From Desulfobulbaceae bacterium (lineage in GTDB: Bacteria > Desulfobacterota > Desulfobulbia > Desulfobulbales > VMSU01), in NCBI GenBank assembly GCA_013792005.1, contig VMSU01000156.1, positions 1 through 42,624 of the forward strand: 42,624 bases of DNA. The letters are read 5' to 3'. The notes under the pieces were generated by a model, which saw only the letters and a program-made list of their open reading frames with translations, searched no databases and was not told the origin of the DNA. This document shows, piece after piece, positions 29,460 through 33,721 of the stretch. How positions within the stretch are numbered: position 1 is the stretch's first letter; the number at the start of each line of letters is the position of its first letter. The translations under genes were made by a program, and so were the position numbers.

Positions 29460-30210
29460 AGATCAGGCGAAGTCCTTCCAGGGTGAGGTTTGGTTCGATC
29501 TCTTCAAGCGACGAGGCATAAGGGGCGATCAGTTTTGCCATGCCGCCGGTGGCGATAACCTTGGGGATCTGAGGTGAGAAGGAGGTCTTGAGCCGTTGGA
29601 TCAGCCCTTCCACTAAGCCGCCATAACCATAGAGGATACCGGATTGGATGGCGGAGACAGTATTGGTGCCAATGGGTTGTGGTGGCGGGATATTGATATC
29701 GACTCTGGGTAATTTGGCCGTTTTGCTGCCGAGCGCCTCAATGGCGATGCCCATGCCGGGAGCAATGGCGCCGCCCAGGTATTCCCCGTGAGCTGAGATG
29801 CAGTCAAAGGTGATGGCTGTGCCGAAATCGACGATGATCATGGCCTGTTGATAACGGTGAAATCCAGCTACAGCATTGACAATCCGATCTGCCCCGACTT
29901 CGGCCGGGGTGTCGATCATGATTGGGATACCGGTTGCTGTGTGGTGATCCACCAAGATTGGGTCTGCTGTTAACGTCCGCGAAAAGGTGAGCCAGGCGCT
30001 ATTCAACTGGGGCACAACGCTTGCGAGGATGAGGCCACGGATGCTGCCCGCGGAAAACTTGCTCATGGCAAAGAGACTGTGGACGATAATGGCGATTTCG
30101 TCGGCGGTGTGCTGGCGGTTGGTCTGAATTCTCCAGTGATGACTGATGTCATTGTTGTTAAAGATACCGATGACGGTATGGCTGTTACCAATATCGATGG
30201 CAAGAAGCAT
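29440..30210 (-). CDS. coaX: type III pantothenate kinase (CoaX)
   Basis: 256 aa, the normal CoaX length. ASKHA-fold motifs are present: MLLAIDIGNSHTVIGIF at the N-terminus, PAEVGADRIVNAVAGF near 102-117, IIVDFGTAITFDCIS near 125-139, and GGLVEGLI and VIATGGMA toward the C-terminus. It phosphorylates pantothenate in the first step of CoA synthesis; type III enzymes are insensitive to CoA feedback and need a monovalent cation. Overlaps the start of ldcA downstream. No strong Shine-Dalgarno site is visible. Confidence 0.96.
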   Translation of the reverse strand: MLLAIDIGNSHTVIGIFNNNDISHHWRIQTNRQHTADEIAIIVHSLFAMSKFSAGSIRGLILASVVPQLNSAWLTFSRTLTADPILVDHHTATGIPIMIDTPAEVGADRIVNAVAGFHRYQQAMIIVDFGTAITFDCISAHGEYLGGAIAPGMGIAIEALGSKTAKLPRVDINIPPPQPIGTNTVSAIQSGILYGYGGLVEGLIQRLKTSFSPQIPKVIATGGMAKLIAPYASSLEEIEPNLTLEGLRLIYERCHE

Positions 30211-30299
30211 GGGTGTACTCGAAGGATAAGGGATAAGGAGCTGTCTTTTATGGGGTGAGGTTTGACTGCCCAGGGGAATTCGAGGAAGAGCTGCGGGAC

Positions 30300-30494
30300 T
30301 TACTGGTCATGGATTCGACTTTCTCTCATGAGCATGACACCGAGGCCTGCCGTGAAAAGAAAGCCGAAGAGGCTGATCCACCATGGAATTACCGTTCCAG
30401 CGACAATGACCTCCACACTCATGATGAGACGGGTCAGGTGGAGGGCGGCAATCAGAAAAAGAAATATGATGGTAATCAGGGACGCAGGTTTCAT
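30300..30494 (-). CDS. small two-helix membrane protein
   Basis: 64 aa from the ATG at 30494, chosen because GGAG lies six bases upstream. Two hydrophobic helices, ASLITIIFLFLIAALHLTRLI and IPWWISLFGFLFTAGLGVML, connected by EVIVAGTV, with a basic/polar tail. It follows the cysteine-rich lipoprotein gene on the same strand and may share its transcript. Function unknown; I recall similar small proteins in anaerobic deltaproteobacteria but cannot name a family. Confidence 0.6.
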   Translation of the reverse strand: MKPASLITIIFLFLIAALHLTRLIMSVEVIVAGTVIPWWISLFGFLFTAGLGVMLMRESRIHDQ

Positions 30495-30512
30495 GACAGT
30501 CTCCATGAGGCT

Positions 30513-30540
30513 GCCGCCCTTGATTTCAAGGGCGGCAGTG
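30513..30540. other. 11-bp perfect hairpin between two small genes
   Basis: CTGCCGCCCTT pairs with AAGGGCGGCAG around GATTTC. No T tract in either direction, so it is more likely an mRNA stability or processing element than a terminator. Confidence 0.6.
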
Positions 30541-30551
30541 TTTGACGGAAG

Positions 30552-30998
30552 TTACTCCGCTTTTTTCAAGGGCATCCCGCATTTGCAGCCTGCAGGCATG
30601 GCAGACAGGGTGTTACAGGCACAAGTTCCCCCACAGTTACAGAAATAAATTCCTGATCCTGCAAGGTTTACCCGTTTGACCGGCATCCCGCATCCGCATT
30701 TGGTCGGGTCCTTGGGGTCAATATTGCATTTGCATCCTTCCTTGCATTGGCAGAGAATGGCCTCATTGCCCTCGACCTTGATCACGTGGCCCCACGCCAT
30801 TGGGGAACCGCACTTGCAGTTTCCAGGGGTGAGGCTGACGGAGTTGCATTTGCATTGGGGGCCGCAATTACAGCTGTAGAGTATATCGGTCCGTTCTTCT
30901 TGGGGGGCGCTTGCGGTCGGGCTAGTCCCTTTAGTCATGCAGGCGGTCATAAGAACGGATACGCAAATGGCCAGAAAGAGTGTTTTGAGCAGGTTCAT
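30552..30998 (-). CDS. lipoprotein with three identical-spacing cysteine repeats (metal-binding candidate)
   Basis: 148 aa. The signal peptide ends in lipobox LMTAC (Cys20). Three repeats then share exactly the same spacing C-x-C-x3-C-x-C-x9-C-x-C: Cys 43/45/49/51/61/63, 83/85/89/91/101/103 and 120/122/126/128/138/140. Each ends in C-x-CG-x-P and has CN after the fourth Cys. Eighteen regularly spaced cysteines strongly suggest metal binding (metallothionein-like) or cluster binding on the periplasmic side of a membrane. AGGAG lies seven bases before the ATG. The divergent neighbour across the intergenic repeat is a CDF metal-efflux transporter, which fits a metal theme, but that link is inference. 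No known family is claimed. Confidence 0.8.
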   Translation of the reverse strand: MNLLKTLFLAICVSVLMTACMTKGTSPTASAPQEERTDILYSCNCGPQCKCNSVSLTPGNCKCGSPMAWGHVIKVEGNEAILCQCKEGCKCNIDPKDPTKCGCGMPVKRVNLAGSGIYFCNCGGTCACNTLSAMPAGCKCGMPLKKAE

Positions 30999-31106
30999 GT
31001 GATTTCTCCTTTTTGTGGGGTTTAGGATGTTTTTTGCCAGAATCTTTGCTCATAATGGTAGCATTGTTGGGGAGGGGATAGCAAATGATTTTTGATGGCG
31101 CAGGTA

Positions 31107-31291
31107 TTAGGGACGCTGAAAATACCAATTTACCATAACGCATCCCGGCTTTGGGCCATCTTTGGTCGCGACTCAATCACAAAATCCTCGACGTAGCGCT
31201 GCTACGCCTGCGGTTTTGTTCAATCGGCGCAACCAAATCTGTCCCAGATCCGGGCGTGATCCAGGTAAATTGGTATTTCCCGAGTCCCTTA
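31107..31291. repeat. 185-bp MITE-like palindromic element
   Basis: Terminal arms of 28 bp (TTAGGGACGCTGAAAATACC... and its mirror ending TCCCTTA) are inverted repeats with a few mismatches; AAATACCAATTTACC is exact. The interior also pairs (CCCGG with CCGGG, TTTGGT with ACCAAA, CAAAA with TTTTG) down to a GTAGCGCTGCTAC centre. The whole element can fold into one long hairpin. It lies between the cysteine-rich lipoprotein and CDF genes. Confidence 0.85.
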
Positions 31292-31368
31292 TCTCCTCTG
31301 TTGACTAACCGGAATAAAAATGATTACGCTGCCTAGGTATTGTGAGGCATTCCTAAATTGTTTGTGTC

Positions 31369-32280
31369 ATGGAGAGGGTTGTGCTGAGGGATGAGCGTTT
31401 CAATAAAGCGGGTCGAGTCATCAAGGTAGGGTTGTGGGCTAACGCGTTGCTGATGGTGATGAAACTTCTGGCCGGTTATTTTGGCAAGTCGGAGGCGGTT
31501 TTTGCCGATGGAGTCGAGAGCGCCTGTGATTCGGTGGCGATTATGTCAACGCTTGTTGCGCTTCATATTGGCCGTAAACCTTCTGATGATGACCATCCTT
31601 ATGGCCACGGCAAGGCGGAGAGCATCGCTGCGATTCTTGTGGCTCTGCTTATTTTCGCTACGGGGGGGGGGATTCTTTATAGTGCGGTACGCACGGTCAT
31701 GACCGGCGTTTATCAGGAGCCGAGGATGATCGCCGTGATCGCCGCTATGGTGACGATTGTTACCAAAGAGGCTCTGCACCGTGTTTCACAGAATGTTGGA
31801 GACGAGCTGGGGAGTCCGGCAGTGCTGGCCATTGCCAAAGATCACCACAAAGATGCAGTTACCTCGGTGGCTACTATGATTGGTGTTACCAGCGCTTTTT
31901 TTGGATTTAAGATTATGGATCCCTTGGCGGCAGGACTTACGGCCTTTTTTATTTTTCATATCGGTTATGAGTCCTTCATGACAGCCGCCCATGAGCTGAT
32001 GGACGGTCAGCCCTCCGAAGAGTTGAACACCACGATTACGGTGTTAGCCGAAGAGGTGGAGGGGGTCGATCATGTCCATGAAATTCGTTGCCGCCGCTCA
32101 GGGCAGTATATCATTGTCGATTTGAAGCTGGACATGGACCCTCAGATGACGGTGAAGCGTTCTCACTCGATTGCATGTGAAGTGAAACAACGAATTTTTG
32201 AGCGATTTTCCGAGGTGGGCGATGTCATGATTCACATCAATCCCCACGATGAGGATCATGTGGATTTGATCAGGCTATAG
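31369..32280 (+). CDS. cation diffusion facilitator (CDF) family metal transporter
   Basis: 303 aa with about six membrane helices and a C-terminal cytoplasmic domain. The metal-site motifs are in place: FADGVESACDSVAI in helix II (D-x3-S/E-x2-D type), the HPYGHGKAES loop, and KDHHKDAVTSVATMIG in helix V (H-x3-D). The C-terminal part (HELMDGQPSE, VDHVHEIRCRRSGQYIIVDL) is the usual dimerising metal sensor. It exports divalent metal (Zn, Fe, Co, Cd or Mn) in exchange for protons; specificity is not readable. Start has no clear Shine-Dalgarno site; GTG 31381 is an alternative. Confidence 0.94.
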   Translation: MERVVLRDERFNKAGRVIKVGLWANALLMVMKLLAGYFGKSEAVFADGVESACDSVAIMSTLVALHIGRKPSDDDHPYGHGKAESIAAILVALLIFATGGGILYSAVRTVMTGVYQEPRMIAVIAAMVTIVTKEALHRVSQNVGDELGSPAVLAIAKDHHKDAVTSVATMIGVTSAFFGFKIMDPLAAGLTAFFIFHIGYESFMTAAHELMDGQPSEELNTTITVLAEEVEGVDHVHEIRCRRSGQYIIVDLKLDMDPQMTVKRSHSIACEVKQRIFERFSEVGDVMIHINPHDEDHVDLIRL

Positions 32281-33505: not shown

Positions 33506-33520
33506 TCTCTGAGGTATGTG

Positions 33521-33721
33521 ATGAAACGTGGAAGCTACTCGGAGCGGCGGCGGGGCGGGAAGTTATTTGTGTGTCACTGCTGTAAAAAGGAGTTGCCCTT
33601 CTGCTGGAATTGTCTCTGTGGTTTCCAAATCTGTGATGAATGTTTCCAGGAAAATAAATGGGGATTGACCAACGGACCGACGTGGGTCTGTCCTGATTGT
33701 GGACGAATCAGGATGATGTGA
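33521..33721 (+). CDS. 66-aa cysteine-rich zinc-ribbon-like protein
   Basis: Ten cysteines in pairs: CHCC, CWNCLC, CDEC and CPDC, spread so that two zinc sites are likely. A basic N-terminus (KRGSYSERRRGGK) could bind nucleic acid. GAGG lies six bases before the ATG, and the gene follows the AI-2E permease by 15 bp, so they are probably co-transcribed. I recognise no named family. Confidence 0.7.
   Translation: MKRGSYSERRRGGKLFVCHCCKKELPFCWNCLCGFQICDECFQENKWGLTNGPTWVCPDCGRIRMM

Follow-up and report, generated by a model that had tools for sequence, protein, structure and literature searches.

A predicted lipoprotein with three six-cysteine domains, a candidate soft-metal binder of the cell envelope in a Desulfobulbaceae bacterium

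The window analysed here, a stretch of 42,624 nucleotides from a Desulfobulbaceae bacterium, contains a 148-residue ORF running from ATG to stop whose product carries three equally spaced six-cysteine blocks behind a lipobox, and which we read, with rather more confidence than doubt, as an exported, lipid-anchored, metallothionein-like scavenger of soft metals in the cell envelope. In each domain, six thiolates would hold a cluster of soft, thiophilic metal ions around which the chain folds, and the lipid-anchored protein would shield an anaerobe's envelope from these ions. The group to which the host is related is anaerobic and sulfide-producing; from this kinship with Desulfobulbaceae we infer the same of the host, whose thiols would then be kept reduced, in a periplasm reducing enough to leave them free. 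The family is real, conserved and unnamed in the two profile libraries searched. Most known metallothionein-like proteins are cytoplasmic. If the soft-metal reading is true, a family exported in two forms, one with two domains and of soluble type, the other with three domains and a lipid anchor, would extend metal handling in such anaerobes to the envelope, and it suggests a route by which an HMBD-type knuckle may have turned into an all-cysteine cluster domain.

The features of the locus are collected in Table 1. A scan with the general lipobox pattern matched LMTAC20 behind the signal sequence, the arrangement of a bacterial lipoprotein; lipidation itself is predicted. The residue that follows the lipidated cysteine indicates where a lipoprotein is located; here it is Met, which points to the outer membrane as the probable location of the anchored protein. 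A sigma-70 consensus scan near the gene gave 0 promoter-like sites against 1.4 expected by chance, and no RNA element reached its gathering score within 30000-31500.

Table 1. Coordinates of the lipoprotein gene, its parts and the neighbouring features in the window
Feature	Position	Strand	Basis
Lipoprotein gene, three six-cysteine domains	30552-30998	-	ORF; 19-row alignment; low pN vs saturated pS
AGGAG ribosome-binding-like sequence, 7 nt 5' of ATG	31006-31010	-	read from sequence
Signal sequence and lipobox LMTA-C20 (Cys20 codon 30939-30941)	30939-30998	-	pattern match
Linker, residues 21-42	30873-30938	-	residue scan
Domain 1 cysteine block CxC-x3-CxC-x9-CxC, residues 43-63	30810-30872	-	pattern count
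Domain 2 cysteine block CxC-x3-CxC-x9-CxC, residues 83-103	30690-30752	-	pattern count
Domain 3 cysteine block CxC-x3-CxC-x9-CxC, residues 120-140, then GMPL (HMBD-like end)	30579-30641	-	pattern and profile
68-aa small hydrophobic protein, 45 nt downstream of the lipoprotein gene	30300-30506	-	ORF
CDF gene, divergent from the lipoprotein gene	31369-32280	+	Pfam (Cation_efflux, 9.4e-41)
67-aa cysteine-rich CxxC protein, beyond the CDF and AI-2E genes	33518-33721	+	no Pfam match above cut-off

The original prediction had described three exact six-cysteine repeats behind a lipobox, and this is borne out by the ORF, the residue positions and a shuffle test. Cysteines stand at residues 12, 20, 43, 45, 49, 51, 61, 63, 83, 85, 89, 91, 101, 103, 120, 122, 126, 128, 138 and 140; Cys12 lies within the signal sequence, Cys20 is the lipobox cysteine, and the other 18 form three blocks starting at residues 43, 83 and 120, each with exactly the spacing C-x-C-x3-C-x-C-x9-C-x-C. 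When the mature sequence was shuffled (n = 200,000), one block arose in 109 shuffles and two or three blocks in 0. The blocks are identical at few of the 31 non-cysteine positions compared (5 between blocks 1 and 2, 9 between 1 and 3, 7 between 2 and 3), so the array did not arise by recent tandem copying. Comparison with the nearest homologue over 147 codons gave pN 0.19 and pS 0.90, with synonymous sites saturated, as expected under purifying selection.

Conservation across the three-domain family was assessed in an alignment of 19 proteins, the window protein included; a copy in G131, which stops before domain 3, and one in G637, found later, were left out. Seventeen of the 18 domain cysteines are Cys in 19/19 rows, and C103 in 18/19. 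All three blocks keep the 3/9 spacing in 15/19 rows and three more have 3/9, 3/10, 3/9; taken by domain, the x9 spacer of domain 1 is present in 19/19 rows, domain 3 fits in 18/19, and between them the middle spacer has nine residues (x9) in 15 rows and ten (x10) in 4. The exceptional protein is L073, which has lost one cysteine and gained a residue in block 3, its middle spacer being 10 residues long. The lipobox pattern fits 15/19 rows, one of them (L067) doubtfully; the start of L079 is missing, and L084 has the look of a lipoprotein although the pattern does not fit it. Past the lipobox, the linker contains extra cysteines in L068, L069 and L077 (7548-8135, minus strand) and Met/His-rich stretches in L077 and L082. 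Met and His together number 9 in L077, 7 in L082 and 4 in L078. Only a minority of the homologues are this rich; in the window protein the linker contains a single Met, and His is absent. The G131 homologue (L080, 9371-9739, minus strand) ends after domain 2, with no third domain behind its stop in the three frames read.

A tree of single domains (54 domains from 18 proteins, L073 skipped) needed 4 label changes to sort the domains by position, against a mean of 25.9 for shuffled labels, with 0/200 shuffles as low. Domains thus mostly cluster by position, the divergent, long-branch domains of L074 falling outside their groups; support is good for only 2/51 inner branches, and the bootstrap had not converged. 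This clustering suggests an apparently old triplication, earlier than the spread of the proteins sampled, with each position conserved separately.

A search with the protein as query found matches in 10/58 related genomes, its own included. Within its own family, the gene occurs in 2/10 genomes (the window's genome and one of the same genus, G002), a patchy distribution among genomes some of which are incomplete. An alignment-based search gave matches in 18/257 genomes of the class and 19/395 of a phylum sample, two overlapping sets; G061 and G118 among the former were judged chance or broken matches, G317 and G532 among the latter were topoisomerase I zinc ribbons, and all were dropped before counting. 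A homologue in an uncultured Nitrospirae MAG, one of 2/8 genomes of that group with the gene, suggests that the gene probably crosses phyla, unless contigs are misplaced in these MAGs. Carriage by plasmids or viruses was considered and rejected: a search of 72,556 plasmid records gave no match, and viral contigs contained no relative.

The searches also delimited a sister group of two-domain proteins, of which 15 were aligned. Their signal sequences were judged by eye, and the lipobox pattern fits 0/15. Exact blocks are present twice in 10/15, once in 4/15 and not at all in 1/15. Conservation of the spacing, which the original prediction had proposed as a check, holds almost throughout the three-domain group, in which only L073 lacks a cysteine and departs in block 3, and holds in part in the two-domain group, where 5/15 lack one or both exact blocks. 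Spacing that is strict in the lipoproteins and looser in their sister group argues partly against a universal fixed cluster.

Scans of Pfam and NCBIfam left the window protein unnamed, and a literature search weighted to open-access journals returned no title or abstract describing the lipoprotein family. Weak matches to Metallothio_PEC were found in 14/19 rows of the three-domain alignment (best 3e-05), the window protein scoring 10.7 bits against a cut-off of 31.8, below this curated metallothionein threshold; these matches are probably due to cysteine content. The second most frequent weak family was HMBD (PF19335), a domain associated with metal-efflux proteins, with 3/19 rows matching (best E 0.0019). 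The window protein itself did not reach the HMBD gathering score and gave no match up to E 10, in a range where HMMER filters drop most matches above about E 0.1.

To compare the domains with HMBD at the profile level, an HMBD profile was built from 19 stretches of related genomes picked by a CPMHP/PGxCPxCGM-type pattern, and a joint profile from 58 domains (domains 1 and 3 together with both blocks of the two-domain group). hhalign aligned the two with a probability of 94.3% and a score of 31.6 over 19 columns around PGxC-CGMxL. Taken separately, domain 3 gave 95.8% over 18 columns, domain 1 87.9% over 27, the first and second blocks of the two-domain group 84.4% and 42.3%, and domain 2 alone 4.2%. 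The highest scores among column-permuted HMBD controls were 13.8 (60 controls) and, with cysteine columns fixed, 15.3 (60 controls); rubredoxin (9 sequences) and YHS (8 sequences) gave 0.8% and 2.2% against the domain profile. HMBD itself gave 32.1% against rubredoxin and 29.8% against YHS, so part of the signal reflects a shared knuckle type. Similarity above the controls is confined to the second half of the domain, and by these profile comparisons the second half of domains 1 and 3 is HMBD-like. Common descent with HMBD is likely, though not proven because the similarity covers few (18-27) columns.

That the protein captures metal at the cell surface, as the original prediction proposed, is supported indirectly by the near-invariant cysteines in 19 proteins, the HMBD-like halves and the export signals, and gains nothing from the link to the CDF gene treated below. 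A stack of clusters, its other suggestion, might also be built on the cysteines. Against metal binding stand a domain 2 that is not HMBD-like, the lack of a conserved metal-gene neighbourhood and the 5/15 two-domain proteins without the exact blocks. Six thiolates fit a multi-copper thiolate cluster. As to the ion, Cu(I) is our tentative choice, held at somewhat less than an even chance, with Ag(I), Cd(II), Zn(II) and Hg(II) as alternatives; it follows from the kinship with HMBD, the Met/His-rich linkers in a minority of homologues, the CxCxxxCxC precedent of CopY and one multicopper oxidase neighbour.

A structure was predicted from three sequences only, giving five models with mean pLDDT of 46.4-74.6. 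In the best (74.6), the ten-residue blocks from residue 41 on had pLDDT 78-91, except residues 121-130 (69). Comparison of this model returned nothing at E 0.001 by Foldseek against the PDB and nothing above Z 3.3 by VIA-align 2, and a phmmer search of PDB sequences gave two chance-level rows (E 0.48 and 0.53).

Genes around the family members were called by a simple longest-ORF rule and compared across 35 loci. The divergent CDF gene that the original prediction had noted beside the lipoprotein gene is there, and it had been offered as support for a metal role; a CDF relative was found in 1/35 loci, the window itself, in a count that covers about 8.5 kb around each gene and includes several contigs shorter than that. 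Linkage to the CDF gene is thus not conserved, and the partnership was rejected, also because the gene in G002 lies directly beside a relative of the cysteine-rich CxxC protein, at the contig's end, with neither CDF nor AI-2E gene between them. The downstream 68-aa protein has a homologue beside the gene in 1/34 other loci, the same-genus one, and is a possible operon partner in the window's genus only. No conserved operon emerged: besides the gene itself, the clusters common to at least 5 of the 35 loci are antisense frames of it, signalling proteins, present in 16 loci, and ABC ATPases, present in 5, as judged from sequence and Pfam. For the three-domain genes, 104 of 105 neighbours were scanned (one window ORF left out), the commonest Pfam families being response regulator (8) and histidine kinase ATPase (7), and no metal-efflux family was among the matches listed (25 of 152 families, the window's CDF outside these). 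For the two-domain genes, 70 of 72 neighbours were scanned (two L098 ORFs left out); among the matches listed (25 of 107 families), multicopper oxidase domains occurred in 2 neighbours and CusB/HlyD in 1. A multicopper oxidase is the next gene in 1/15 two-domain loci (L089), and no conserved metal-gene neighbourhood was found across the 35 loci.

Two further regions of the genome were recorded. Between the lipoprotein and CDF genes (31106-31292) lies a 187-bp imperfect palindrome with 29-nt ends that are 86% complementary. Complete or partial copies turn up at about 37 places in the genome, nine of which start at contig base 1; the 65 BLAST matches behind this figure count the palindrome on both its strands. 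The sequence looks like a MITE-type element. Elsewhere, 6/7 HMBD matches and 3/4 YHS matches of the genome fall at 32613-43555 of contig C225, some of them in a 906-aa frame; this is probably a Cu/Ag efflux region.

Other functions were weighed against soft-metal scavenging. HMBD segments of Cu/Ag efflux systems hand on metal, and the protein might likewise be a chaperone and not a store, passing Cu(I) to an efflux or cuproenzyme partner. The HMBD-like half of the domains would suit such a role, as would a genome with seven HMBD matches (six on contig C225), in which a Cu/Ag-type system probably exists; yet the matches listed include no common metal-efflux neighbour, one CusB/HlyD-type protein near the two-domain genes notwithstanding, and 18 thiols are a storage-like number, so that we consider a chaperone unlikely. 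Exported proteins often carry disulfides, and the domain cysteines are even in number (18, plus the lipidated one), as would befit a structural or adhesive envelope protein with paired cysteines and no metal. CxC pairs, however, are characteristic of metal-thiolate proteins, the domains resemble the metal-binding HMBD, and the host is kin to an anaerobic, sulfide-producing group; we regard disulfide pairing as distinctly unlikely.

Redox or sulfur chemistry at the cell surface, with the protein as thiol buffer, persulfide carrier or electron relay, appears very improbable. It draws on weak matches of 4/15 two-domain relatives (best 5.1e-05) to ExtJ, a protein of the selenite/tellurite cluster, but in the two members scanned singly the best stretch is the signal region (residues 1-30 or 1-31), and no cytochrome or rhodanese family is among the matches listed (25 families per neighbour set). 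These two members scored 23.6 and 22.8 bits against the 52.5-bit cut-off of NF040942; each has a second matching stretch, and the ExtJ link was rejected on account of where the best stretches fall. Separately, a 77-aa frame in the window's genome (L100, contig C238, 1921-2121) lies at the ExtJ cut-off, with 52.1 bits, or 52.5 with its neighbours in frame. We take its neighbours, from their sequences, to be a TlpA-like thioredoxin and an UppP-like gene; within the 3.2 kb covered there, no further ext gene was recognised. The least probable proposal, which we give very little weight, is a lipid-anchored array of three metal-thiolate or metal-sulfide clusters on sulfide-producing bacteria, a re-shaped HMBD acting as metal-sulfide scaffold or short electron relay.

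The anchored soft-metal binder that we favour can be set beside several known systems. With HMBD it shares the PGxC-CGMxL second half and the aromatic-x-Cys start; the full signature CPMHP plus PGxCPxCGM is absent, CPMHP being replaced by CxC-x3-CxC and CPxC shortened to CxC in the CxCG end, and the window protein is a free-standing triple array with a lipid anchor. MymT, the mycobacterial copper metallothionein, has a predicted capacity of up to six Cu(I) according to the part of PMC7558416 drawn on here, where it is not described as a lipoprotein. Its model (NF052418) is matched weakly in the second half (positions 26-45/47) by 5/15 two-domain members (best E 0.0047), the best of ten scanned singly reaching 16.8 bits against a cut-off of 80, and in NCBIfam the window protein matched neither MymT nor ExtJ. 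In CopY, according to the same review (PMC7558416), Cu(I) is usually bound by a CxCxxxCxC at the C-terminus, which is the string of the first four cysteines in each block here; CopY is a DNA-binding repressor, whereas the window protein is exported and has no Pfam DNA-binding domain. The copper lipoprotein CopL of Staphylococcus and Listeria, compared by description only, is suggested in PMC10233261 to bind extracellular copper, and unlike the window gene it is encoded with a copper ATPase (copXL). PmtA of Pseudomonas aeruginosa is a bacterial metallothionein detected at the cell surface, by a route given as unknown in PMC11237414; the window protein has an explicit lipobox. CopL and PmtA are, by analogy, functional precedents for the window protein.
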